A DNA stretch of 64,000 nucleotides from Siphonodentalium dalli (lineage: Eukaryota > Mollusca > Scaphopoda > Gadilida > Siphonodentaliidae), in contig CP136061.1 in the NCBI GenBank assembly GCA_032622095.1, forward strand, positions 50,479,762-50,543,761, in the 5' to 3' direction. The position numbers and the translations under genes were made by a program. This document shows, one piece after another, positions 4,981 to 57,300 of the stretch (positions within the stretch are counted from its first letter, which is position 1; every line of letters starts with the position of its first letter). The notes beneath the pieces are model-generated. The model ran no database searches and had not been told where the DNA came from. It saw only the letters and a program-made list of their open reading frames with translations.

Positions 4981-5100
4981 TTGGTTTGAAATCGTACATG
5001 GATGCCACTCTGTGCGGCCATTTGGCGACATTGTCTTTGTAACGTGGGTCCTCGTCATGATATCATAACTGGTTCACGCTGTTGAATGCCAATGGAAGCA
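4981..5100 (-). pseudogene. Broken duplicate of ARFGEF3-like last exon
   Basis: About 120 bp resembles the 3' part of exon 28 (compare 6115-6235). The minus-strand reading gives ..AFNSVNQL, a TGA stop, then DEDPRYKDNVAKW and MYDFKP. It has an in-frame stop and no stop at the normal place, and similarity ends sharply at 5100. It lies about 1 kb downstream of the real last exon between two transposons. It is a dead partial duplication. Confidence 0.88.
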
Positions 5101-6109: not shown

Positions 6110-6325
6110 TCATTTTGGTTTGAAATCATACATCGACCCTACTCGGTGCAGCCATTTGGCAAGGTTGTCTTTGATCCTTGGGTCCTCAGCATGACATACC
6201 AACTGGTTCACACAGTTGAATGTCATTGGAAGCATGGCCTTGAACTTGTCTTCTGGAAGCAATTGAAGCAGTTGGAGTATCGTGCAGATCAACTCACTCC
6301 ATGACTTAACGTGGGCCTCACTGTC
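6110..6325 (-). CDS. ARFGEF3: ARFGEF3-like exon 28 (last, with stop)
   Basis: A 216-nt coding part (acceptor TCTTTCCAG) encoding [31 protein letters not shown] and [14 protein letters not shown], ending TGA. It matches the C-terminus of BIG3 (RDAEAQIQAW..WLGRVGRVYDI). The 3' UTR extends leftward, with no clear poly(A) signal seen. Confidence 0.97.
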   Translation of the reverse strand, partial: DSEAHVKSWSELICTILQLLQLLPEDKFKAMLPMTFNCVNQLVCHAEDPRIKDNLAKWLHRVGSMYDFKPK

Positions 6326-9300
6326 CTGGAAAGATAGAAATGCAACGGTCATAATTAAACCATGAATTATCGCGTGGATAGCTGTCCTGAAAAAATAGGT
6401 ATTCAACCCTCTATATAAAGTCATGAATACTATTTTGGAAGACAGTTTAATAACAAATTTCTGAACTGTGTCATCCATTAGACCAACGTACATAGTTAAC
6501 GGCAGCCGGCTTATCAAATCTAATTTAGTGGACAAGGTTAAAAAAAATCATATAGAATTGCAACGAATTTGAGATCCATTTTATCACATAATGACATTTT
6601 AGCAAGGAAAAACCATCTCGAAAATGGTTGGGTAAATACAAATTAATATTGATTTCCTTATCACAACCAAAAGAGGAAGTAAAGACAACTTCAAGAAAAA
6701 ATATAGTTCCATTTTAAATGTGTCTTAAAATGTTGACAAAATTGTTCAACCACCCTTATTCCCCATGTTTATCTCACAGTCTACACTAAATAACCCACCA
6801 CAAATCGAATATCATAATTATATTCTAATTAACATAATAATAAAGCTCCAGCATTGATATGGATATCATAGCATTAAGAACTTATGCCACTGTGCATGCT
6901 GATAATACATGTGTGTCTTACTAAAAAATTTGAGGCTGGATTTAGGGGCTAATTACGTGATAAAAATGCATCGATTATTATTAATTTATTGCCTTCATGA
7001 TGCATCGATTATTATTAATTTACTGCCTTCATGACGCATCGATTATTATTAATTTATTGCCTTCATGATGCATCGATTATTATTAATTTATTACCTTCAT
7101 GATGCATCGATTATTATTAATTTATTACCTTCATGATGCATCGATTATTATTAATTTATTACCTTCATGATGCATCGATTATTATTAATTTATTACCTTC
7201 ATGATGCATCGATTATTATTAATTTATTACCTACATGATGCATCGATTATTATTAATTTATTACCTTCATGATGCATCGATTATTATTAATTTACTGCCT
7301 TCATGATGCATCGATTATTATTAATTTATTGCCTTCATGATGCATCGATTATTATTAATTTATTACCTTCATGATGCATCGATTATTATTAATTTATTGC
7401 CTTCATGATGCATCAATTATTATTAATTTATTACCTTCATGATGCATTGATTATTATTAATTTATTGCCTTCATGATGCATCGATTATTATTAATTTATT
7501 GCCTTCATGATGCATCGATTATTATTAATTTATTACCTTCATGATGCATCGATTATTATTAATTTATTACCTTCATGATGCATCGATTATTATTAATTTA
7601 TTGCCTTCATGATGCATCGATTATTATTAATTTATTACCTTCATGATGCATTGATTATTATTAATTTATTGCCTTCATGATGCATCGATTATTATTAATT
7701 TATTGCCTTCATGATGCATCGATTATTATTAATTTATTACCTTCATGATGCATCGATTATTATTAATTTATTACCTTCATGATGCATCGATTATTATTAA
7801 TTTATTGCCTTCATGATGCATCGATTATTATTAATTTATTACCTTCATGATGCATTGATTATTATTAATTTATTGCCTTCATGATGGATCGATTATTATT
7901 AATTTATTGCCTTCATGATGCATCGATTATTATTAATTTATTACCTTCATGATGCATCGATTATTATTAATTTATTACCTTCATGATGCATCGATTATTA
8001 TTAATTTATTGCCTTCATGATGCATCGATTATTATTAATTTATTGCCTTCATGATGCATCGATTATTATTAATTTATTACATTCATGATGCATCGATTAT
8101 TATTAATATTACCTTCATGACGCATCGATTATTATTAATTTATTGCCTTCATGATGCATCGATTATTATTAATTTACTGCCTTCATGATGCATCGATTAT
8201 TATTAATTTATTACCTTCATGATGCATCGATTATTATTAATTTATTACCTTCATGATGCATCGATTATTATTAATTTACTGCCTTCATGATGCATCGATT
8301 ATTATTAATTTACTGCCTTCATGATGCATCGATTATTATTAATTTATTATCTTCATGATGCATCGATTATTATTAATTTATTACCTTCATGATGCATCGA
8401 TTATTATTAATTTATTGCCTTCATGATGCATCGATTATTATTAATTTATTACCTTCATGATGCATCGATTATTATTAATTTATTACCTTCATGATGGAAG
8501 ATTTCTGTTGCTTTGTGATCTCCTCGTCCACAATCGGAGCTTTCCCTCTGTTTAATATTTCCTTCCGTTGTTTTGTCATTTTCACGAAGCTTGGCATACA
8601 GTGTTGTTGTTTGCGCCGTTTATACTGAGTCATCAGCGTTTTAATGAAGTTATCGCTCGCCAGGGTGTACACCTTCCCCTCCTGATCGTACTTGGCTTCT
8701 CGTTTACTCTTGCTGTGTACCGGTGAATCACACGGAGTGCTGGGAAATGACTCATTATCAGAGCTCTCAGACTCCGACATCTGACCTAAATACAAATATA
8801 AACGAGGATATAATTGTTAGCCTACTCCTTATCTGGCCACCCTGGTTCTGTCATATTCCAGCCCACAAATAGTGTGTCTTCATTTGCAGAATGAGGTCCA
8901 CAGTGGGCTAGCATCACCTAATTCACCTTCTGGGGAACTCATTCTACTTAGGCCTCATCTTCTGGAAAGTATCTATAGTCTCAAATTAACATTATTTGCA
9001 GACTTAAATCTGATCCTAGGTCTTCCACAGCAGTTGAGACCTAAGCAGAATGAGGTTCCCAGAGGGTGAATTTGATGATGCTAGCCTGCCGTGCGGGATA
9101 TTGTCACTAAATTCACCCTCTGGGGACCACATTCTGCAAATGACAGACACATTATTTGCAGGTTCTGTTATGTTCCAGTCCACAATTTAATGCTGTCACT
9201 TGAATGTCGCAACAACAAGATGTCACCTCGCAATCCCACATGGCATACTGCCTAGCGTTGGCATATGCAGATAGATTGAATATAAAGGTAACTTTATAAC

Positions 9301-12300
9301 TGAATTTGTTTTGAAAAGTTTTGAGAGATGTCAATGAGATCCAGAAAGTCATGGTTGAAATATCTGCGCAAACGGACAAAAAAATCTAGCTTTCCAAATA
9401 AAGAATAACTCTAAAACCGAAAATGATAACAACAACATTTAAAGGCCCTCGTCATGGTGAACATCCACAACAAATTTCATTGGAATCTGATAGCTATTGG
9501 CTGAGATGTCACATGCCCCAAATTTACTGAGTTTAAGGTCCTTTAAAAATATCGTTGATTTTCTTTTTAAAAATGTTATAGTTATCGAATGAATAACGGC
9601 AGATACATGTAAACTAATCGTCAAATAATACAAACCTTCAACAGTGACAGTTTCCGTTATTGCTGGATACATCGATGACGTTTGATTGACAGGTTTCGAT
9701 TTCTTCGGCAGATGCATGAAATCAGAGACCTCTTCATTCTGAGCCAGCAGAAAAAACAAAGGTTGATCGGACATCCGGTCAGCGCTGCTGGTCCCTTCCT
9801 TATCTACGAGAATATTAATATACGTCTGACATAACTCGTCACCCACTCTCTGTAATAGGTGTATGAACAACTCAATGTTATCTAGAACTCCCTTCTTAGA
9901 ATTTCTAAGGGAGCTTGTAACATCCATATCTTTCGCATCATCAGTATGTCTTTTGCTTCCTTCTGAAGTTTGCCCCATAGACATTTGGCTTTCTTCTGAA
10001 GTTTGCCCCGTAGATGTTTGGCTTTCTTCTGACGTTTGCCCCGTAGAAGTTTGACTTTCCTCTGAAGTTTGACTAGATGATTCACTTGGAGTAGATAATT
10101 TCTTTATAGTTTCTTGCACCTTCTGCAGAGTTATGTTTTCCCATTTGGAGTTTATCTCGACTAGTGTGTGAATATAGAAGGTCATCGCAGCACCTGCTTG
10201 TTTGTAAAGGTTGGTGGCTACATCAGTCCGTGCAACCTTCTGCACCAAGAACTTCATCCCTGGTCGGTTGTCAAAGTCACATGCCAATAGATAAGAAGAA
10301 CGGAGACTATCCAATAGGCTGACGACATTCCTCGTGGATAAATAAGATACCATACCTATGGAAAATACAAGAAAGGATGAAAGTGTTTTATCTTACTGCT
10401 GTGTGATCAAGCTAATTTTTAGAAGCTGAAATGCCTTGTGCACAGAGAGGTAATTGTACATAGAGCTGAACATACTTCAAGGGGATCTTAAAGTTGTGGT
10501 GGTGGCAAATTTGTTTTACCCTGTGCCAATGCATTCTCTTATATATGTGAGTTGACCATAGGTCGCCTCGCATATATAAGAGAATGCATTGGCCTAATAA
10601 TTTTTTACAATTTTAATAATTTGTTCTTGTATTCTTTAACAATTTTATAATTTCACCCATACAGAGCCCCAGACAATCGTGAGCAGACAACACTCTTCTA
10701 TATGCTTCTATATATGTGTGGGGCTCCCTGCGGGGTAATGGTTGTTTTTTTAATTTTATGTCCTAAAAATTTTAAGAAACATTTATTTAAAAAACATGAT
10801 AAAAAATTGTTAGGCCAATGCATTCTCTTATATATGCGAGGCGACCTATGATCGACTCGCATATATAAGAGAATGCATTGGCACAGGGTAAAAAATAATA
10901 ATATAATAATAAATAATATGTGTGCCTCCGGTTTCCGGATGATAACTTTAGATCGTCTCAACTGAATGTAATGACATTTTGTATATGTAATTACTATCAC
11001 AAAATACAGGTCAAGTTTCGGAATTTGGGTTCTGCCTGCCAATTTCACAAGAGTTATGGACCTTTAATGGAATTACCACACACATATTTTGCCAAACCCT
11101 AGAGACGCTCTTGTTAAAAATCATTCACTAAACGATTAGTCTTTTGAGTTGCTATGATTTTTAATTTCTCTATCTGACTCGACTACAACTGATATTGCTC
11201 ACTACTGATATGGGCACCATAAAACAAATTCATATAAAGGAGAGTTAATCCAAGGTATTTTAGTCTGTTATATTCTAAACTGCCACAGGGCAGACTTCTC
11301 TAGACATCATTAGTGAATTTTCCACTACCAGAGTCCAAGACCTCTACTGTAGGCCCGGGATAAGAGCATCCCCCTGCTCATATTATATGGGTGTCACAAA
11401 ACGAAAATAATTTACTATATAAATACCTGGAAGCTTGGAGAAGGAGAAGTTTTTATCTTTGGTATTAGCTAAGGGAGACGTTGGTTGGTCGAAGGACGTC
11501 CCAGCTGCGCCCTGAAGTAGGATATAACCGACCGTCTGTATGAGGAGCTGGTGTGAGAGAAGTCCGATCACTATACTTCTGAATGGTATCCTGAAAAATT
11601 ATCCAGACATTAAAGTTTTCATGACGGGAGCTGCGCTGATGCAGCATTAAAGATCCTGTGCCAGTGCATTCTTTTATATATGCGAGTCTCCAATACAGAG
11701 CATTGCATATATAAGAGAATTCACTGGCTTACAATGTCAATCAAGGTGATTATTGTTAGGCCAATGTATTCTCTTATATATGCAAAGCTCCCTATGGGAG
11801 TCTCGCATATATAAGAAAATGCATTGGTACAGGGTTTTCGCAAAATTTCAGAAAGCTCCAGTCTTGGAATGGTTAAGATATTATAAGCAGATTACAGGCA
11901 CATGAACAATCTGAGCAGATTACAGGCACACAAACAATCTGAGCAGATTACAGGCACACAAACAATCTGAGGATTCATTTGACGGGATGTTCAGCTGAAA
12001 TAATCAACAAACTAGGGCTCCAAAAGACAGGCTTTGAAAGAAAAATTATCCATTCATCAATTTATGCATTCATCAATTTCTTGGTAAAAATAAAAATGAA
12101 AAGCCTCACTCACTTAAAGCTTGTCCAATTTTGAATACATAATTGTTATAGATGTATGGGTGACTCACCTGGCGAGGATATCATCTGGGTTGACACTCTC
12201 TTCACAGTTAGGAGGATACAGGAGGAGGATATAAGATTTATCTTCCTCCATGTCGTAGTGGATAGGATCCATATCACATATCTGACAGTCCAACAGGAAT

Positions 12301-15300
12301 ACCTGTCAATTTACATATTTTTAGTTTTATCAAAAGCTATTGAGAGAAAATAGTGTTTATAGGACTATTAAAAATTTAATAACTGCCAAACATGTCTTTT
12401 AGTCACCTTACTTGGTGCCAAGCTTGGCTATTATCCACACTTGCAACATGAAGTAAACCGGAATCACTGACGGACCTTCAACATACGACGACAATGTCAA
12501 TATCTCATAATTCTCTGACAGTAATTCTTATTCAAATGCGGTACCCTCTGGAATATCATCATCCATTGGCTGTCACCATTTTCAGCGATAAGGTACAAGT
12601 AAACAAAACACACATGAGTTTACGTAAGTATTTTTGCACTACGGGTTACACTACGTTATGTTTATGGAACAATTTTTGAGTTACGTGTTGAAAGGGTTAA
12701 GTTTGTGACTCGATCGTACCTGTTGAGCCAGCTGCCTCAGCCGCTCACATTCCATCACAGTACAGTCATTCCTTGTCGCGACCTTGACCTGACCTCTATC
12801 TCCATAAAAGTTCTCAGATTGTTCTCGGAATAATGTCATCAGCTGCCGCAGGCTGAATGAGGTGGCATCCAATGCTCGCTGTAGTGACTGAACACACATC
12901 CGCCACATCGACTCAGATAAATACGGCCCAGCAGTTAACAGCACATGTCTACAAGTAAAGGATTTTGAGTGAATAAATTGTCTCTCAGTGGTTTTAACCC
13001 TTCCATGACTAGAGCTTCCTGAAATTTTACGAAAACCCTGTGCCAATGCATTCTCTTATATATGCCAGTATCCTATAGGGAGCCTTGCATATATATGAGA
13101 ATACATTGGCATAACAATATTTACCTTGACTGTGTAACCATTCTCTTATATTTGCGAGGCTCCCTATGGGAGACTTGCATATAAATACGAGAATGCACGG
13201 GCACAGTATCTTTAATGCTGCACTAGCGCAGCTGCCATCATGAAAGGGTTAAGGCTAAATTCTCTGTTGTTTTGGGATAGGTAACTTCTTATTTACACAC
13301 AGTACCTAAACCAAGGGTGTGTGAAGTAACCAAGGGTGTGTGAAGTAACCAAGGGTGTGTGAAGTAACCAAGGGTGTGTGAAGTAACCAAGGGAAAGGGG
13401 AGCATGAATTCCAGAAAATGTAACTTTCTTGTCAGGTAACAAATAAATTCCGAAAGGGCAAAACAATTTGGGAATCAAACATCATTATTTTAAACTATAT
13501 CAAAGGTTAAACTTTTTCACACTTCTATCTCAACAAGGTTTATTTTGCTTCATTCACAGTGACATATATGCCAAAAACCACAGGGTGAACATAAATGAAT
13601 TAACTCATATTGAGTTGTGATTGGTGAATGATTTTTATCGTTTCTTACAAAGTTGAAATTTTTTCTAATAATATAGATGTAATAAATTATTAAAAACATA
13701 TCGCTGTAGTGACAAATAAATTTCAAGTGGATGAACTCAAGTTAGGAAAACTACAACCTTGTCGATCCGAGGAAGAAATAATACTGAAGAATACTGGTCC
13801 AGGCTAGAAATTTATACTTCTCCATGCTAGTGTCAAGACAGAAGAAAAAGTTTAAAGATACGGTAAGCATTGGCAGTGGGTATTGCTTTTAAAATAGCCA
13901 CATGTTAAAAAAAATTTAAAACCGCCATAAACAGAACAACTATTATATTATAGACAATTTTTTTACTTATACCAATAATAAATATTGCGTAAATTGCTTG
14001 TTATTGTCATGTTAGTACTCTGTGTTTAAACAAACACCACGTTATGTGAACAAACAGTACGTAAGGAGTATGTGATAAGCAAAACACTCAATGCTGGGGA
14101 GACCCCACCCACTCAGTGAACTCTGATTAGAAATGCCAACAAGCTGATTACAACATACCAGTGCATGAAGATCATATGACAATTTATAAGAAACAAAGTG
14201 TGGTCAGAGATTTTATTAATCAGCTCAAAAGTAATACATGTGTAAGTCGTGATTCTTTTATCACTGATTGGAGCATCGCTGATTTTGAGGAGATACAATC
14301 TGCACAGTTCAATTTGAAGGGCCTCTTTGCCGGAAAATTAAATTGATGTCATACCTGATACATGAGCATCCGAGTCTGGAGATAACTTCTGCTTGCTGCG
14401 CACAGCACTCTGTCAGCAGCGTGAGTAACTGCTGAAGCATGAATTCTATGGAATTCTGATATTCGGTCTTAGCTGAAGACATAAATTAACATTTAATATT
14501 CGTCAGTTAAGCAACATAGAAACTTCTATAAATACATAAAATATAATATATGGACTTTATGTGTCTTGGAAAGGACTTGTTTAATTGAGATATTTATTAA
14601 CTGCTTTCAACTCTGGGATGAGACAAATGCTCTTTGTTATTGCATGTTAAAGACTAACTACAAATGAGTAGCATAAGATCTCACTAATACTCAGTTATTA
14701 ATATATTTGTTTTTTTTGCAACCCTGAAAAATTTGGTTCATGTGAGCAGCAACTCAATTTGCCTTTTTTCTATTCAATTTGTGTCCAAAAAAAAATGCAC
14801 TGACAAGTAGCTCACTTTCAAATGTTCAAACAGTAAGTTCAATAATAGTCTTAGCTGCTAATTATGTTAACCCTTTACCCAACAAACCGGCCAAATAAAG
14901 CTTCAACAGCCTAAAATATCTTGGGTCTGTCTCAATAAAACCATACAAATATGGATATCATTGGAACCGGCTCATTGACCACATTGTGATGGTTACAGTT
15001 ATGCCCTGTGCCAATGCATTCTCTTATATAAGAGAATGCATTGGCCTAAAAAAAATCTTTTTTTAACACTTTTTACCATTTTTTCTTACATTCTTTAACA
15101 ATTTAAAAATTTTTAATGTGTTAAGCCAATGCATTCTCTTATATATGCGAGGCGACCTATGGTCAACTCGCATATATAAGAGAATGCATTGGCACAGGGC
15201 CGTTCTGTTGGGTAAAGGGTTAACTTGGGAAATGTTTAGATAACCACTTATTTTATCACATAATTAGCCCCTAAACCCACCCTCATATTTTTTAGTAAGA

Positions 15301-18300
15301 CACATGTGTATTATTGGTCAAAAGCTCTTCAGAGCTTGTGTTTGTGATATGTTTAAATACCTCTGACTTTTAAATAAAAATTATCTTATCTTATCTTATT
15401 GGCATGTGCAGTGACGCAAGAGCTTAGAGCAATGATATTGATGTCAATGCAGGAACTTTATTATGATGTTAATTAGAACATAGATATGATATTTGAATTG
15501 CATTGGGTTATTTAGTGATGACTTTGAGACAAACATGGGTGATAACGGTGGTTGAACAATTTTGTCAACATGAAAAGACACATTTAAAATGGAACTATAT
15601 TTCTTGAAGGTGACTTTACTGCCTCTTTGGTTGTGATAAGGAAATAAATATTAATTTGTTTTAACCCCAGCTGTTTTGAGATCGTTTTTCCTTACTAAAA
15701 AATGTGATTATGTGATAAAATGGATCTCAAATTCGTCGCAATTCAAAACAAAATTTATTAACCTCATCCACTAAATTTTATATAGAGCCTTGCTAGAGCT
15801 CAGGTCGATTCAAATTTATTGCACTCGGTTAATAAATTTTGTTAAGAATTGTGACTCATTAGAGATCCTTTATATCTGAACATTCCGTCCCATCTATTAA
15901 ATTCCCTCCCAATGGGAATCTGATGTTTGGTGCACATAAAACATCTCTCCAAATTATACAGCACGACCATTCAAATGTATAATATTATAAATTTACAAGA
16001 AAATATTCAGTGATGAAATGTTTAACACGCTAACAAGAACACAATAAAAGGTCAGCTGACCACAGTGTCCCCCAAAAACGTGGCAAGTCGATGCCTCTTT
16101 GTTAAAGAAATTAAAAAAAATGTTGAAATTTTCTACGTCGAAAAGGGTTAAAACTCTGTAATTTTTTTTTTCTTTTTCCGTCATCTATATAAATGTTGCA
16201 CATCTCCAATATGTGGGTAACAATACTCTGAAGTTTCAAATATCTACGATCAAAACTGTAGGAGGAGTTGATTACACCATGAAGGTACCCTCATACAGAA
16301 AATTATAAAAAATGTTGAAATTTTCCAAGTCGAAAAGGGCCAATAACTCCATCAAAATGTTTTTTTTTCGTCATCTATATACATTTTGCACATCTTCAAT
16401 ATATGGGCAACAAGATTCTGAAGTTTCAAATCTCTGGGATGAAATCTGTAGGAGGAGATGATTACACCATGAAGGTACTCAAAAGTGTGACGGAAGGATG
16501 AACGGACGGCTAGACGAACGGACGGACGGACAGAGCCCGTTTCTATAGTCCCCCAAAAATATATTTTTCGGGAGACAACAAGAACATCATTCAAACACTT
16601 ACATGAGAATTGGATAATGAAATCTACAACAAGGTCAGCGGTGAGGCCATTACACTGCTTGAAGTTACTAGCACCAGTTATCCAGTATCCATACGTATGG
16701 GATCCCTGGCGTAACCAGCCTTGCATCATCGGAAGTAGTAGATGGTTAATGCAGTACATAGCAAATTCTGGACCTACAAAAATAAAATGTGAGTGTGTGA
16801 AAGACCAATGTATGGCATTAGATGACATTCTCCAATGTTTGTTTTCAAAATTTCAATAACTCTTTTATTACTCCTCAATCAGCAAGCCTGAAAATAGTGT
16901 GTCTGTCATTTGCAGAATGAGGTCCCCAGAGGGTGAATTTAGTGATGATATCCCACACAATGGGCTAGCATCACCAAATTCACCTTCTGTGGCCCTCATT
17001 CTGCTTAGGCCTCAACTGCTATGAGAGACCTATGATCAAAATGTGGTTCCCCAGTTGAAGTTGGTGATTAGTCACCTCGATTATGCATTTTATCATCTGC
17101 AATTTAGGGGATATAGAAACTTCCCAGAAGGGAAAAAGTAACTAAAAACAATGTTAATTTGAGACTATAAATACTTCCCAGAAGATGAGTCCTAAGCAGA
17201 ATGAGGTCACCAGAGGATGAATTTGGTGATACTAGCTCACTTTGCAGGATAGCATCACTAAAAACTCTGGACTCCTTTATCTTGGTGTTACTAATAGTGA
17301 GTTCTGATTGGTGTTACTGATGTGGAATCCCAGGGTTGCGGAATGAAAACTCTGTTAAAGGTCATCAGACCCACTATTTTATATGTGGGTATGTAGTTTA
17401 CTCCAGACTGACTATTTGCAGACAAGTCAATCAATCTGAGTGAACCGAGACTGCTACGCGATCGATAGTATGAAACAAACAGCAGGGAATCCCATTACTT
17501 TCACTGTCGGTGTCAACCAATCACAAATCTCGGCAGGATGCAGCCAAAGCCAATTAGAAGATAGTGATGTCAGGCCCCAAGCTTGGAGGCAACTGGGGCA
17601 AAGTTTTCGCCTTCTAGATGGCGACTTCGCCCTCGGATGTCAATTGTGTTTTGCAACGAAGTTTATGGTGGGCTACTAGTACGTCTTAAGAAGATGGGAT
17701 ACTCATATATATAAGAGAATGCACTGGCACAGGATATTTAATGCTGCACCAGCGCAGCTCCCATCATGAAAGGGTTAATACATGCTGATGAACAGTGCAT
17801 TTATTCCCACTTATTCATTTGTAGAAATGTTCAGTTAATACCTGGGACTTTGGAAGCATTCCGTAACAACTCAAACAACATCTCCATCGTCTGCGGCTGA
17901 AAACTTCGAGGACATGATGCGATAGCAGTAGCCAGGCCATCGACGACTAGAAACCACACATGAAGAACGCCTGAATGGTTACTTTCAATCAACTGTGCTA
18001 ATTTCTTCTCTGACTCCGTGTTATATTTCCTAGTTTCACTATCAATCCCAGAGTCCACTGAAGTAATACTCGTACATTCCTCGCTTCGATTGTCAGAGTC
18101 CGTCTCAAAATGACGAAGTGAAGAAAGACCACTATCAGGTTTGTTGTCACTATGAGAACCTTCAGAAAATACTTTCTGGAATTTCTCAAGGTCCATGTCT
18201 GGTATAATTTTGTCAACAACCTGGTTTGAAATATCAATCTGGATTCTGAAACAGAAGAACTAGATATTCTTAGAATCTGTGTTTTTGAGACAATGCACAT

Positions 18301-27300: not shown

Positions 27301-30300
27301 GGAATTCATTTACATGGAAATGAGCGAGCTCCTTGTAATTAGACAGCATGGCTATGATGTAGTCATGGATACACGTCACAGCCATCTTAGATACATTTCT
27401 GTCTGGGTGACTAGCAGCCTGTAAGAGGAAATCATATATTAAAACATTCTTGTGTGTAGAATATTTTCTTTCCTATTTCAAATCAAAACATTGTTATCGA
27501 TGTCGATAAGAAATCATGCATGAACTGCAGTCAGTAATAGATAGAGGATGTCTGCTCTAGACTAAGTACAAATACAACACATTTGTAGCAGATAGCCACT
27601 GGCTTTATTGGTGACAAGGTGAAAACAGACATTCCAATTCCAACAACGGCCTTCAGAAACATTTCGGGGCAGACAACTTTTCATGTTCATGCCTATAGTA
27701 TGGCTATTAACCTCATACTGTCTCATATGCTAATGCATTATACTGCATGCAGTTGGTAAATATCTTCTCAAACCTAGATTTTCAAACAACTTGATTGAAC
27801 TGACAGCCGTTTACAGAAGGCATTCAGGCATTAAAACAGAAATAAAACCAATGTGTGGAGAAAACAACTCTGAAAGCTTTGAATGCTCTTGCCTGCATAC
27901 ACCAAACATATACAATTGATACATTATATGCAAATATAAACATGATCAATAAGCATCCTATACGATTAGTTCCAATTCATAATAATTTGATTCCAGCAAT
28001 GCACTGAATTCCAAAATTAAGAAAAATCTACATAATAAAATATATACACTTCGGTCGGTTATCAGTCGAACATATTGTAACTGTTACTTATAATATATGA
28101 TGACTACTCATGATAAAATGTTCTGCTTTGTATACACGACCTTGGTACCGGCAAAGACATATACGTGAGTTCCATTTATTTGAAATATCCGCATGTTCTT
28201 TCAATTTAAATTAAAATTTGATACGTGCACCTTGCGAGACCAGACCGGCTAAAGTGACCAGAACAATAGCTCACCCAGTAAGCCCGACCACGGCTTACAC
28301 TCATTAACACTATTCACCTGCCTTTAGCATGTGATCGACAATGAACAATGACTCAGTTGTATTCATACGTTACGCTTCAGACAAAAGTTTTGTATTATAC
28401 TGCGAAACGTCAAAAACAAATACTCTAATGTGTCACAATTCTATACAAAATTTATTAACCGAGTGCACAAGCCTTGAAATAGGGTGTCTGTCATTTGCAG
28501 AATGAGGTCCCCAGAGGGTGAGTTTAGTGATGCTACCCCGCATAGCGGGCTAGCATCACCAAATTCACCCTCTGGGGATCTCATTCTGCTTACACCTCAA
28601 CAGAATGAGGTTCCCAGAGGGTGAATTTGGTGATGCTAGCCCACTATGCGCAGTAGCATCACAAAATTCACCCTCTGTGGACCTCATTCTGCAAATGACA
28701 GACACCCTATTTCAAGGCTTGTGAGTGCACTAAATTTGAATCGAGCCGAACTTTAGCGAGACTTGAATAAAATTTAGTGGACGAGGTTAATAAATTTTGT
28801 ATAGAATTGCGATGAATTTGAGATCCTTTTAACCACAATTTTAAAATTTTATCTCAAAACGGCTGGATTAAAAAAAGTTAAAATTTATTGATTTCCTTAT
28901 CACAACCAAAGAGGAAGTAAAGACACCTTCAAGAAAAATTATAGTTTCATTTTAAATGTGTCTCTTCATGTTGATAGAAATGTTCAACCACAACCCTTAT
29001 CACCCACCCTTATCACCACCCTTTTCACCAATGTTTATCTCAGTCAACACTAAATAACACACCCTTATCAACCATGTTTAAATCACAGTCAACATTAAGT
29101 AACACAACACAAAGTGAATATCATGATTATATTCTAATTAACATAATAATTACATTGATCGATATCATTGTGCTAAGCTCTAACATCACTGCGTGTGCCG
29201 TATAATACACGTGTGTCTTACTAGGGTCGAGTTTAGGGGCTAATTTTGTAATAAAAAGCGATAATTGTTATTAAAATATGAACAGGGACCACCACTTTTC
29301 GGCACCTACTGGAACTTGTACACAGTATCTAGACTAACATATTTTTTTGAAGCCCTTGCACTTAGTAACTGCTGTTTTAGCAGTTACTAAGTGCAAGGGC
29401 TTCAAAAAAATATGTTAGTCTAGATACTGTGTACAAGTTCCAGTAGGTGCCGAAAAGTGGTGGTTCCTGGCTTTGAGGGCTTATTACTTGGTAATTAGAA
29501 TGGACAATGATAATGGTGATGTTTTGACATTTTGAAAACATGTACATCTTACTTAATAGTATGCAAACATACATTATGCTTTTCTTTTCTATTAGAACAC
29601 ACACATACACTATATTAAATTTCTGAATTAAATCCTAAGTTATTCGGCCCTTTCATATGCTCTAAATTATTTTCAAAATTATTAAGACCCAACATGAGGT
29701 TCCAGTCCATTAATTTTCCAACTGTTAGTCATGTTCAAGCCTTGAAATAGTGAGCCTGTCATTTGCAGAATGAGGTCCCCAGAGGGTGAATTTAGTGATG
29801 CTACCCCGCATAGCTGGCTAGCATCACCAAATTCACTCTCTGGGGACCTCATTCTGCTTACACCTCAGCAGAATGAGGTTCCCAGAGGGTGAATTTGGTG
29901 ATGCTAGCCCATTATGTGGGGTAGAATCACTAAATTTACCCTCTGGGGACCTCATTCTGCAAATGACAGACACCCTATTTCAAGGCTTGATTTTAAACCT
30001 CAACTTTGCATGCTTCACTATTGTTATCAGTTGGTCATACACTATCTTAAATGTGAGCTTCTTTTCAAAAATCATTCCGCCGCCATGCCACCGATTATGC
30101 CACAGATTATTTGTTTGACACTGTTATTGTCCTTATGACATACCCCACAATGTACCCAAGAAAATGTATCATTGTGTATGCACTAGCGGTTTAGGACTGA
30201 CCCCCAAATGTCTACATATTGTGTACCATTCTGAATTTGTTTGAATTTTAGGCTAAATCTTAATTATTCAAAAAAATTATTTGGTCATTTTTAAAATTAA

Positions 30301-33300: not shown

Positions 33301-36300
33301 GATCGTTCTCAACGTTGTAGATGGACCAGTCTACTAACGTTTTATCACCTGTTGTCACATTGGGAAGAGAATATTTGCGTTTCTAATATTGTTTCGTTTA
33401 AACAAGCATGTTTAATAACAACAAACAGAGATAAATATCCGGTTCGATTACTCAAATAAAAATACGGAAATTGAATACAATCGAAACGAAAAGATATATA
33501 TAGTGATCTTCATAGAAAGTATGGAATGACTTATTCTGCCGTATCTGAATAAGTATTATGTGTCATTGTACCTCAATACATGCCAGCCATAAAAACTTCA
33601 AATATTAAACCAGCATACACATCGCCAATACGCACCATATTTCTTTCCGGTTTGCGTTCACGAAATTGTAAATCTCAGAATTGTTTACCGTTTACCTTTT
33701 CGAATTGATAAAATACCGAAAAATATTTGAACACATTTAACAACAACAAATTTGACTTAATAAACTTGGGGTTTGGGCAGCTTGTGGTGACAATATGCCT
33801 GGTAGTTATCATTGCCTAGTGTCAGTTTTTTTATTACCAACACATAAACCATTGTATGTCTATCATATTTGATGTTTGAAACATAACATAGTTTCCTATT
33901 TTCGTGTTATGATTATCATTTGACAGGTTCGGTCAAATTGAAAATCGTAATATAATGGTTCAAGGCGGGCCTATTTCCAGACGCGGCTATGCCCGAGAAT
34001 CAAATAACTTTTTTTTTTTGGCCTTACACTTGATTTTTATATCATTGTTCTTGTTGCGAATTGTGGGAAAATTTCCCAACTTCCAGTCGCAGCACGTGGT
34101 CTCACAAATCGACTTTTCGTGTGTAGAACTCTCTTCAAGAACACTGTTTATGCGGTCCAATTGCTATGTTATCTCTGTTCACGTGGTTTTAGAATTTAAC
34201 AACATTGGATTTTAAACTTAGTTTATGTTGGAATTATCACTCACAATGTTTCATGTTGACAATGTAGCGAATACGCAGGGAGCAAATTAACTGGCATCGC
34301 ATCGCAATTTGCTACCCACATTTGCAGACATTTGCATAATGAGGTCCCCAAAGGGTGAATTTAATGACGCTATTCTGCAAGGTGGGCTAGCATCACCAAA
34401 TTCACCTTCTGGGGACATCATTCTAATTAGGCCTCAACTGCCATGGGAAACCTAGGAACAGATTGAAGTTCTCCAGTTGAAGTTGGTGATGTGCACCCAT
34501 TGGGTACTTCGATTAACCATTGTATCTTCTGCAAAATAGGGGATATAGAAACTGAACAGAAGGGAAAAAGTAACTAAAAAATGTCAATTTGATACTCTAG
34601 ATACTTCCTAGAAGATGAGGCATAAGCAGAATTAGGTCTCCGGAGGGTGTATTTGGTGATGTTAGCCTGCTGTACGGGGTAGCATCACTAAATAATTCAC
34701 CCTCTGGGGACCTCATTCTGCAAATGTCAGTCACACTAAATTCAGGCTTGGGAACAGCAAGTTTGTTTTAATTTGATAATGAAAACAAATACCAGTGCTA
34801 GCAGTTGTTTACACAAGCCTGTCAGATGACATCTATTATTCCAATCTCAATTAATGACCTGTGTCTCTCTGCAGAGGGTTGGGGGCAGGGTGGGGGTCTG
34901 GGCCATGTGGAGGCGGTAATGGAATGTTTCCGTAATTTCATTAAATTTTCATAACTCTGCGGATGTTATAATGGTGTTACATTTTCAAATTCCACAATCG
35001 ACCCAGTGACCTCATTGAACAATTCTGGACCACAGTCACCCAAGGACCCTTTATACCAAATATGAACCCATTTGGCCCAATGGAACTTGAGAAGAAGTTG
35101 TTTGAAAAATTACTATGGTGTGAAAGAATTATTCGCAACTATTTGACCGGGTGACCTCACTTGAACAAATCTGAATGTGTGTCACCTAGGGAACATCCAC
35201 ACCAATTATGAACCCATTCGGTCTTATGGTTCAAGAGAAGAAGATGATTCTTGACAGACGACCGGACGGACGGACAAGGAGTGATGACTATAGCTCAACC
35301 AGAGACTTCGTCTCAGGTGAGCTAAAAACTTGTTAATTGGTGATAAAGATACTTTCCAGAGAAGATGAGACCAAAGTAGAATGAGGTCCAGAGGGTAAAT
35401 TTAGTGACGCCCCACTTTGCAGGGTAGCGTCACTAAATTCACCCTCTGGGGACCTCATTCTGCAAATGTCCGGGACCATATTTTGAGGCCTGGAAACAAA
35501 CTGTGCAGGGAAGCTTACCCATCAAGATCATCTGGCTGACTGGTATCTTTATATAACCCACAGGGATCCCCATACAGATAATAATAATAATAATAATAAT
35601 AGAGAACATTTATATAGCGCTTTTCCCAAAAGGCCCAAAGCGCTCAGCCACAACACAAGTTCACGCACATATATGCAATATACAAGTGGGTCACGTAATA
35701 ACATATGCAGAACTAAGAGGCATCACTCTCAGGGACGACGTTCCATAGTAGAATTCGAAAAGTTCCGAATTAAGTAATGTTTTAAAAGTGTCCATGGTAT
35801 CGGCTTTCTTTGTGTCGGCCTGTAGCCCATTCCAGACGGACGGAGCATGATATTCAAATGATCGTCTTCCGTAGTTTTCCGAGTCACGTCTAGGAACAGC
35901 CATCCGATTTAGATCTTCTGATCGCAATTCGCGCGGCGGAGAGTACATATTGAGAATAGAGTCAATATAAACCGGCAAAGGCTTTGTGATGTCATTTGAG
36001 AATTTCTTATAACAAAAAGTGGCACATTTATAATCAATTCGAGCTTCAATTGGAAGATAGTGTAGTTTCGCAAGAAGAGGTGTGACGTGGTCAAATTTAT
36101 GTTTTCGTAGAGCAATGCGAGCCGAAATGTTAATTATTCTCTGCAGCTTTGCCAATTGATCTTGTGGCAGACCAGCGAATAGAGCATTGCAATAATCCAG
36201 TCATGAAAATACAAATGAGATCAAAGTCTTCGTGGATTCTACCGACAGATGTGATCACATATGAGAAATACGCCGAAGTTCCAGAAATAAGGACTTGCAC

Positions 36301-39300
36301 AGTGTGTTTATATGGGACTTCATGGACAGTCCTTTGTCTAAAATCACTCCTAAATTTTTGGCGTTATCTGATAATTCGATGTCGGCGCTGCCAATGCGTA
36401 GGGAGGTAACCTTGATAGCTTTTAAACGCTGATCCGTACCACAAAACATTAGTTCAGTTTTGTTCTCGTTGATGTGAAGTTTGTTCACCTCCATCCACTG
36501 TTTGACTTGCATCACCCCTGACTGCAAATGTGCGAGTTTTAAGTCTATATCGCACTGCTTAAAAGAAATGAACATCTGGGTATCATCAGCATACATGTGG
36601 TAGCTGATACCGTTACCAGCTATTATGCTTCCGAGAGGTTGTGTGTATGCCGAATATAAAACGGGTCCCAGAACTGACCCCTGTGGAACACCGTATCGAA
36701 TAGATCGCGATTTCGAACACGCGTCACCAATCACCACAGTTTGCGTCCGACCAGTTAGATAAGAAGTGAACCAGGAGAGGACTGTGCCAGAAACTCCAAA
36801 TGTATCTGACAAGCGTTGGGTGAGAATCTGATGGTCAATCGCATGCAGATGGAAGCATGCACTAAAGAGTGTCGTCTGCTCCAGTCTATATGGGGCTCTC
36901 TATGGGTTAAACTGTGCAGGGAAGCTTACCCATCCAGATCATCTGGCTGACTGGTATCTTTTGATTGTTCTTGCTTCACTTTTGGTATATTAGACTTGTT
37001 CTGACCTGTACTGAAGTAAGTGTGTTCCAACTCCGAGATGTAAGCACAGCACCTAAAATACATTAAATATCGATTGTGAATTATACACTCTTTGGTCATA
37101 ACATCAAAAGAATTTACAAAATGCTCAATTTTGGATGACTTATAGCTCATGTCTCATGGTAATGATCAAGCCTTGAAATAGTGTGTCTGTCATTTGCAGA
37201 ATGAGGTTCACAGAGGGTGAATTTAGTGATGCTATCCTGCATAGTGGGCTAGCATCACCAAATTCACCCTCTGGGAACCTCATTCTGCTGAGGTGTAATT
37301 TGCGGTGTGCATCACTAAATTCACCTCTGGGGACCTCATTCTGCTATGCGGGCTAGCATCACTAAATTCACCTCTGGGGACCTCATTCTGCAAATGACAG
37401 ACACACTATTTCAAGGCTTGATAATGATATAGAGAATATCTAATGAGTCACAATTCTATACAAAATTTATTAACCGGGTAAATTTGAATCGAGCCAAGCT
37501 TTAGCGAGGTTCGATTAAAATTTAGTGGACGAGGTTAATAAACATTGAATAGAATTGCGATGAAATAGAGATCCATTTTATTACATAATCACATTTTAGC
37601 AAGGATAAACAATCTCAAAATGGCTGGGGTTCAACAAAATTAATATTGATTTCCTTATCACAAATAAAGTGAATGTAAAGACACCTTCAAGAAAAAATAT
37701 AGTTCCATTTTAAATGTGCCTTTCATGTTGACAAAATCGTTCTACCACCCTTTATAATGACCAATGTTTATCTCACAGTCAACACTAAATAATATTCAAC
37801 CATGGATATGTCATAATTGACATACTCACCCGTCATAAAGAGTTAATGAATACTGACCTGAAAACATGTTTCCAGCAGTCTGCGGAGTGACTCCCGATTT
37901 CCAGTCCGCTTGATAATACTGAATTGAGACTGAGTACGTGTGCCGCGTGAAGCTTTACCAGCTTTGGTTTGTTCTGCATGACCTGAGATTTCAGAGCAGA
38001 CTTCAGTTCAGGGAATATACTCTTTCTAACTTCCTCACTGACACATGATGTGTTTGCAAGCTCGTTAAACACACTTGCACATTTCCGCTGGAGACCTGTA
38101 ATTAGGACAGAAACTTTTCTGAAGTCTCAGCTAAAATAATTAGCAAAAAGATATTTGATTTGAACAAGTAACTAAACTTTCACACAACCAAGCCTTGAAA
38201 TAGTGTGCCTGTCATTTGCAGAATGAGGTCCGCAGAGGGTGAATTTAGTGATGCTACCCCGCATAGCGGGCTAGCATCACCAAATTCACCCTCTGGGGAC
38301 CTCATTCTGCATACACCTCAGCAGAATGAGGTTCCCAGAGGGTGAATTTAGTTATGCTAGCCCACTATGCGGGGTAGCATCACTAAATTCACCCTCTGGG
38401 GACCTCATTCTGCAAATGACACACACACTATTTCAAGGCTTGCAGACAACCAAGATTCAATCGTGCCCATGCTCACAACAGATCGTGAGTATAAAATGAA
38501 TATCAAGCAGTGTTTGATTTCACCTGCAAAATCGTGGTGTATCCTTGGTTACCTCAATTTGCGACTGAATCGCAGTCATGTGTATGCAAAAATTGTGCAT
38601 GGAAAGATCATAGGGTAACCATGTGGTTAACCATGGCTTACGATATCCTTATATGTGACGACAACGCAATCATGTGAACAGACTATCCACGATTTTGTCG
38701 GTCCTGATTCCTCCACTTACGATTGAATCGTGGTCGTCTGAAAATTCAAAAGTAATGATACACAATGATATTAAAGCTGAAAATCCCACTTTGTGTTCTA
38801 GATATCATTGGAGTTAACTAATCGTTTACTAACCACCGAATAGTGGGAGCAGGAAATTTGTTAATTGTTTCACTAATTAGTTTCCTATCAGCATTCATTG
38901 GTTTATTTGGGCAGTGATGTGACTGCCCAGAGAAATAAAGTTAAATCAATCCTGTGTTGCCTTTAATCAACGAGTAAACACTATCAATGTTGTGATATGG
39001 AAATAGTTGCTGAAAGTGACATAAAATCCCAATAAAACTAACCGACACTGTTATACTAATAGGTATGAGTATGAAAATGAGATAATAGCTTCATTAGCTT
39101 GTAACCAGTGTTCATGTTGGACTTAAATTCTATTGGCCAAATTAAATCCTCATTTACTGGTCTCACAATTAATGAATATATTTGTTTTATTTAACATCTA
39201 ACATTCTATACAATTATGTCCATACATTCAAATACCGTGTCTAGACTTCTTTAATCCCACCATTGTTACTTGACAATATACCTCTACCAACCATCTACCA

Positions 39301-54300: not shown

Positions 54301-57300
54301 TTCAGGATTTAGTCGGAAATATGGCTTGTTGCCATTCATCGGAAAGCTCTCTGCTGTGGTTAAGAGGTCGATTAATTAGAGCATTACTGTACATGTTTAG
54401 GCATTCAATTGTAATACTAACTTGTAGATTATTTTAGCTGTAGAACTGTGTAATGCTGGAGCGGAAGATGAGCAGCCAGTCCCACGACCAACCTCCTCTG
54501 ATGACAGAGATTTCGTTAACAGGGTACTCTTCTCTGCGTTAGGCGTCGACAGAAGAGAAATCAAGTTGGGACAAAGTTCTTTCCTGCAAAAAAAGAATTC
54601 ATAAAGTCTCATGTGAGATTTTTGTTATTCCTCAAACCTTTCATAACGGGAGCTTAGCTAGTGCAGCATTAACCCTTTACCCAACAAACCGGCCAAAACC
54701 GGCCAAATAAAGCTTCAACAGCCTAAAATATCTTCGGTCTGTCTCAATAGAACCATACAAATATGGATATCATTGGAACCGGCTCCTTGACCACATTGTG
54801 ATAGTTACAGTTATGCCCTGTGCCAATGCATTCTCTTATATATGCGAGTCGACCATAGGTCGCCTCGCATATATAAGAGAATGCATTGGCCTAACATTTT
54901 TTTAACACTTTTTACAATTTTTTCTTACATTCTTTAACAATTTTATAATTTTTAATGTGTTAAGCCAATGCATTCTCTTATACAATGTATATGCGAGGCG
55001 ACCTATGGTCGACTCGCATATATAAGAGAATGCATTGGCACAGGGCCGTTCTGTTGGGTAAAGGGTTAAAGATCCTGTGCCAGTGCATAATGTGCATTCT
55101 CTTATATATGCGAATGCACTGGGTTACCAGGTCAAGATAAATATTGTTAGGCCAATGTATTCTCTTATATATGCGAGGCTCCCTATGGGAGACTCACATA
55201 TGTAAGAGAATGCATTGGCACAGGGTTTTTTTCCCACAAAATTTCAGGAAGTCTCCAGTCATATAACACTTATATTTATGTATGTATTCTTTTGTTCAAT
55301 TTAAAAAAATACAGTGGAAATGTCTATTATTCATTTAGCAATACCATACTGATGTCTTAGTCCGGTCTGTATTGATCCTAGGTTGCCGTAACCATTTTCT
55401 TAGGAAATGATCAGATAAAAAGTTCAACGAAGTTGAACAAATGACCATTGAACTTAGTATATAAATATTTCCCTCAAATAAATAGGACACCTTTTGTACT
55501 TGTTTTATCTCTTGTCTGGTTATGTTTCCAGATAACCCCTCCAGAAGAATAATAGACCATTCCAATGAATACTTCATAACTGAGTGGGAGAATCCATTTA
55601 GTATAGAAAGGGTTAAATGGGTCACGTAACAGATGGGTGTATGATTAAATGGGCCACGTAACAGATGGGTGTATGATTAAATGGGTCACGTAACAGATGG
55701 GTGTATGATTAAATGTGTCACGTAACAGATGGGTGTATGATTAAATGGGTCACGTAACAGATGGGTGTATGACTAAATGGGTCACGTAACAGATGGGTGT
55801 ATGATTAAATGGGTCACGTAACAGATGGGTGTATGATTAAATGGGTCACGTAACAGATGGGTGTATAATTTTTAATTTGTGGCATGTGGCCACACTAGCC
55901 AAGATGAATAACTCTACAAGATTGTCCCTTTTGTTCCTCCGTACTTACCAGATTAAGTCCTGGAATATTTTGTGATCTCTCAAGATGACAGGAGAGTTTC
56001 TAAGAATGGCGTAGATTCCTTCCAAGAGTAACGGCACTGATTGCCTTTGAACAGGTCTAAAATGTAAAATTAGATGGAAGTTAACAAATACATTCAAGAC
56101 ATTTTATGTTTCTGCTGAATTCTGGGTTTAAAATTGAAATAAAAGCATATAGCTCACTTAGATGTAGATAAATCGAGGCCTAAGATGTATTTGATAAAAT
56201 GACACACCCAGCAAATATATAGAGAATCTACAACTCGCCCCCAGTTTATAGTGGAATTTACAAAAACTCGTCCAGTAAATTTGGTCTGGACTTGTTTTGT
56301 AAATTCCGCTATTTATGCGTTGTTTGTCCCAGATAAATACAGACTAGTTGACGTATTTAATGGTGTATATTTAATGAAATAACATTTCAAGTTCTTCATT
56401 CATTAGAGTTTGTTGGAATAATATTGGAAGTCATAGCATTTTGAGACGTAGCGTATGGGATGCAGACGACAAACCGACAAAGGTCAGTCAGAACTATTTC
56501 CTGCTATGCAATGAATGTTGTATATCACAATTTATAGAATGCATTTATTGACAGGACAGGATCATGTAATAAATAGCAATAATATATATATATGTAGTAG
56601 TAATATAGTAGTAATATATGCTAAAGTAAGGGTGAAATAATTCAACACTAGAATAATATTATGAATAAAAAAAGATTTACTTTTACTAAGATAGGTGTAA
56701 TTATTTTTCTTTTAAGCTGCTTAAACAATTTCAATTTGATTCATTCTGAGGGAAAATCTAATGTATGTCTGGATGTCATTGACCATATACAGATTGCAGA
56801 AACTGTGCGAATGGGAGAATCGGATTCTAAGTACCTGTTAGTGAAAATTATGCACAATTTTACTTAGCACACAAGGTCACGCTTGGTACCATAGTAATAT
56901 TCAGCACACGACAAAATGATGCACACAGCCCCATCAGCAATACTTACAATATAGCACTTTCAAGTTTTCCCACTAAGAAATTTAGCACTGACACATTCTC
57001 CTCAATAAGAGTTTCATACTTTCTGGCATCTGAAAGAATAAACATTTAAGTCATCCACACTGTAGGAGGAATTAACTTCAGTTGTGGGCAGAAATTAAAT
57101 ACAATACATGTATGGGGATTGTCGTGAAAAAGCCAACAATATATAATCAATGGCATAATTATCTGTTAACCCTTCTAGCTTCCTAAAATTTTGCGAAAAC
57201 CCTGTGCCAATGCATTCTCTTATATAAGTGAGTCTCCCAGAGGGAGCCTCACATATATAAGAGAATACATTGGCCTAACAACATTTACATTGACTTTGTA

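Follow-up and report, generated by a model that had tools for sequence, protein, structure and literature searches.

Intron 27 of a BIG/ARFGEF family gene in Siphonodentalium dalli opens with 45 tandem copies of its own exon-intron junction. With moderate confidence, we regard this array as a locally born and largely neutral minisatellite of the IFI6 kind, which would give rise at most to occasional leaky truncated transcripts. In the window (the whole 64,000-nucleotide stretch that was analysed, to which all positions refer), Tandem Repeats Finder placed the array at 6966-8496, with a period of 34, 45.1 copies and 96% matches; on the minus strand the unit reads CATCATGAAG/GYAATAAATTAATAATAATCGATG, where the slash marks the junction. 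Cut at the donor on that strand, the array falls into 45 units, 44 of 34 bp and one (unit 12) of 32 bp, each composed of 10 nt of exon end followed by 24 nt of intron start. Unit 1 is exon 27's own junction, exactly CATCATGAAG/GTAATAAATTAATAATAATCGATG. The array begins at the exon-intron boundary and carries a donor position in every unit (GT in 23, GC in 21 and AT in one, the exon-adjacent unit being GT), and more than one unit therefore offers a plausible GT donor. Judged by its sequence, the array belongs structurally to the splice-donor minisatellites of IFI6 type, a known kind. The initial annotation, which had described about 45 tandem 34-bp copies of a 5' splice site built from the last 10 nt of exon 27 and the first 24 nt of intron 27, agrees with the repeat detection, the unit cutting and the position of unit 1 at the exon end, and its hand count of donor dinucleotides was exact; the span that it gave (6967-8786) covers a real array but at its upper end takes in exon 27.

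The host gene is identified from its sequence as a BIG/ARFGEF family member, because two minus-strand exons match the halves of the BIG2_C domain (Pfam PF20252) in the right order. Exon 26 (9636-10355), corresponding to the first half, scored 24.4 bits, just under the 27-bit cut-off, and the last exon, exon 28 (6110-6519), corresponding to the second half, lies above the cut-off (E 6e-7) and is open up to its stop codon. As a best guess, the subfamily is presumably ARFGEF3 (BIG3). Comparison of solved structures with the C-terminus of the gene yielded no significant relative. Exons are numbered 24-28 as in the initial annotation, and the analysis covers these local exons. Exon 26 ends in phase 1 at its donor (TTGAAG/GTTTGT) and joins in frame to exon 27 (8487-8785, minus strand), whose frame ends KQQKSSIMK; its first donor, D0 (AAG/GTAATA, 8485-8486, minus strand), is in phase 0. 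Exon 25 seemingly ends in phase 0 (CAACAG/GTACGA) and exon 26 starts in phase 1 (window 12719-10355); probably they are separated by a small exon still unrecognised, unless exon 25 has its donor at another place. Minisatellites are frequent at the locus: one of 3.7 copies of 33 bp lies in coding exon 26 (9951-10071), where the 11-codon unit encodes a repeated peptide, and others lie at 6-509 (42 bp x 12) and 55613-55870 (32 bp x 8). Open frames resembling LINE reverse transcriptase were recognised by eye within the gene at 36315-36770 and 35694-36185 on the minus strand. The end of the last exon (6115-6234) recurs, 80% identical, in a 120-bp stretch at 4981-5100 on the minus strand; this copy contains an in-frame TGA and was rejected as an alternative last exon, being the decayed remnant of a partial duplication, which lies downstream of the gene.

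The junction unit was found only at this locus. A search of the whole 2.2-Gb genome with the unit pattern, allowing up to three mismatches, returned 44 matches, all within the array, and the same search with a reversed control pattern returned none; a DNA search of the genome found, beyond the array, a single weak match (68%), to a 33-bp AT-rich array on C4 whose unit differs. A dispersed satellite was rejected on this ground. The absence of the unit elsewhere in the genome indicates that the array was probably born locally. An assembly artefact, by which the array itself or its length would be wrong, appears very improbable: near-identical unit arrays are hard to assemble, and the misfit of the reading frame nearby leaves room for error, but distinct unit variants are arranged in an ordered pattern, and both flanking exons match here only, or best here, genome-wide.

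Between the array and exon 28 (6965 to about 6516, minus strand), intron 27 consists only of a high-copy transposable element, present as a 3'-truncated copy that begins at the array end and reaches the exon-28 acceptor. A first look at the genome gave more than 4,000 candidate places for this element, whose consensus CACTAAATT(T/C)GATT corresponds to CACTAAATTAGATTTGA in the intron 27 copy, whose 3' part is truncated at exon 28. The element comprises about 450 bp and a 3' end whose last part is an inverted copy of the preceding part, a large hairpin; further copies lie in the window at 15251-15777, 28771-29257 and 37519-37792. When the array was sought upstream of the element in 29 other copies, the sequence there was unrelated, which argues that the array was not borne by the element; an origin as an internal part of it, as in elements with internal tandem repeats of the TRC-MITE type, was rejected because these copies lack the array. 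The unit is flanked by CAT on both sides and fills nearly all the sequence from the CAT of exon 27 to the element, suggesting that the element was already in place when slippage between the two CATs started the repetition. Under the favoured neutral reading, slippage or unequal exchange would have multiplied the 34-bp segment across the intron 27 donor, lying between these short direct repeats, into 45 tandem copies; the copies are seen in the sequence, and the process is what we infer from them. A CAAT marker variant recurs in units 19, 25 and 31, and unit similarity is highest at lags 6 and 12 (permutation p ~0.03 for lag 6, uncorrected for the 15 lags examined). This recurrence and likeness make it probable that later growth took place partly in blocks, and a stretch of 6 units was probably duplicated as a whole.

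Intact GT copies pair with the 5' end of U1 at a predicted -6.6 kcal/mol, the same as D0 and within the best 4% of the window's GTs; GC copies pair at -3.0 kcal/mol, and the GCAGTA form at -4.8. Donor position +2 is the most variable site of the unit, being non-T in 21 of 44 copies (the next site varies in 5 of 44), which implies that donor loss was not purged. Since block duplication can spread +2 variants, this is not proof of neutrality; nevertheless, donor function across the array shows no sign of selection in the sequence and is probably not selected. The idea that many donors are maintained by selection thus runs against both the variability of +2 and the poor U1 pairing of the GC copies, two observations that, together with the restriction of the unit to this locus, the unrelated flanks of the element elsewhere, the block pattern of the variants and the IFI6 precedent, count for the neutral reading.

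A functional donor array, in which many U1 snRNPs would bind and the use of downstream donors would scale with array length, giving a tunable share of protein without the last BIG2_C block, is unlikely. The 23 copies that keep GT, most with U1 pairing equal to that of the first donor, speak for it and count against neutrality, as does the use of downstream repeat donors in IFI6 according to the passage on that gene in PMC4526556; moreover, downstream donors here converge on a single protein end. Against it stand the position of +2 as the least conserved site of the unit and the behaviour of the first donor, which truncates too when joined to the nearest acceptor, leaving no clear full-length product to be balanced.

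This last point follows from a phase mismatch at the exon 27-28 junction. D0 is in phase 0, whereas the nearest exon-28 acceptor (6519; TTAG/ATTTG, AG at 6520-6521, minus strand) is in phase 1, and their join reads AAG ATT TGA, an immediate stop (SSIMKI-stop). Joins of D0 to 6509 and 6386 also meet early stops, and of the four acceptors tested (6519, 6509, 6460 and 6386) only 6460 gives an intact C-terminus from D0; this in-frame acceptor (CAG/AAATTTG, AG at 6461-6462, minus strand) has a weak context and costs about 20 residues. The control joins of exon 24 to 25 and of exon 26 to 27 are both in frame. All 44 downstream donor positions lead to an identical end, SSIMKVIN-stop, whichever acceptor is used. 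The initial annotation had correctly predicted a TAA 10 nt into the extra sequence (AAG GTA ATA AAT TAA) and truncation before the last conserved block, as SSIMKVIN-stop precedes the last BIG2_C block. Its contrast between a full-length product of the first donor and truncated products of the others does not hold in this assembly, because the join of D0 to 6519 stops at once. The proposed action of the array as a dial for isoform output is not favoured by the sequence and conflicts with the assembled frame. A hidden micro-exon that would mend the frame between the array and exon 28 was rejected (nine formal candidates, all in the element, had no convincing sites), as were phase-1 donors earlier within exon 27, all of which are weak (best -3.6 kcal/mol among those scored).

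An error in the assembly or a damaged allele may explain the misfit, or the 6460 acceptor may be the one in use. Element-like sequence spans the nearest exon-28 acceptor, where the consensus has TTTG or TTCG, and the AG is therefore probably derived from the element. On the damaged-allele account, intron 27 would have lost its native 3' end, and exon 28 perhaps its opening bases, to the element and a deletion, so that the last exon of this haplotype would be out of frame, the protein would end early with any donor and the array would be a bystander. We consider this account fairly unlikely. The continuation of element-like sequence through the acceptor, the stops reached from D0 at 6519, 6509 and 6386, and the in-frame control joins all fit it; however, exon 28 is open over its full length with a significant BIG2_C match, an in-frame acceptor is present at 6460, and a one-base assembly error would look the same. 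For the favoured reading of a neutral minisatellite, the failure of the frame to close between D0 and the nearest acceptor counts as a difficulty, since it leaves normal splicing at this intron unexplained.

The array also concentrates potential polyadenylation signals, which the initial annotation had overlooked, as it had the transposable element and the phase mismatch. AATAAA occurs in 39 units, overlapping the donor (GTAATA), which amounts to 39 occurrences in 1.5 kb on the gene strand; the rest of that strand has 1.25 per kb, and the opposite strand of the array has none. According to the passage on U1 in PMC5499120, this snRNP protects transcripts against premature polyadenylation by suppressing nearby poly(A) signals. 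The array might accordingly form an intronic polyadenylation zone of about 39 signals, each beside a U1 site able to repress it; GC copies would retain the signal with only poor predicted U1 binding, and transcripts ending in the zone would encode a protein terminating in SSIMKVIN-stop. The strand-specific excess agrees with such a zone, as does the protective role of U1; but the motif may have arisen by chance from the AT richness of the seed unit, and when a GU-rich downstream element was looked for in the unit none was evident. Overall the zone is improbable. An even more speculative extension, to which we assign very little probability, would make the array a length-dependent switch with a U1 site and an overlapping poly(A) signal in each unit, GT copies silencing the signal and GC copies leaving it active; if this were true, the mix and number of copies would set the share of truncated BIG-family protein.

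The initial annotation did not recognise a 5' splice-site satellite from the literature, but any novelty is overtaken by the human IFI6 (6-16, G1P3) minisatellite, whose supply of multiple splice donors (Turri, Cuin and Porter 1995, Nucleic Acids Res 23:1854) is cited in passages of PMC4526556, PMC2915984, PMC2572611 and PMC3618361. The first of these passages states that two downstream repeat units serve as donors and that three mRNA species result (PMC4526556). In both systems each minisatellite unit carries a splice donor position, as judged here by sequence. The gene and the sequence are unrelated, and the 34-bp unit here is much longer than the IFI6 unit, which is reported to be about 12 bp. 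In the present array the unit is not a multiple of 3, every extension would truncate the protein, about half of the copies have GC rather than GT, and AATAAA is present in most copies. We know of no splice-junction minisatellite beyond IFI6 and this array. The human DDX3Y/MSY2 minisatellite was considered as a second precedent and rejected, as it provides a transcription start and not repeated donors. Tandem GYNGYN donors (PMC1779574, Genome Biol 2006) resemble the array in that neighbouring, nearly equal donors compete, but they comprise two donors a few bases apart that arise by motif overlap, whereas tens of donors are present here through amplification of the whole junction. Intronic minisatellites such as that of an earthworm metallothionein intron (PMC12783039) are likewise tandem repeats within an intron with unclear function; in contrast to them, the unit described here includes a splice donor and coding bases.

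Under the favoured reading of a largely neutral minisatellite, the array lies within the intron and would for the most part be spliced out or do no harm. As it adjoins the real exon, the first donor would be expected to act as the main one, and the 22 downstream GT copies would be potential leaky donors, all yielding the same truncated end. The array provides a natural test bed for splicing choice where a single intron offers many equal donors, and also for the seeding of a minisatellite by a splice junction.
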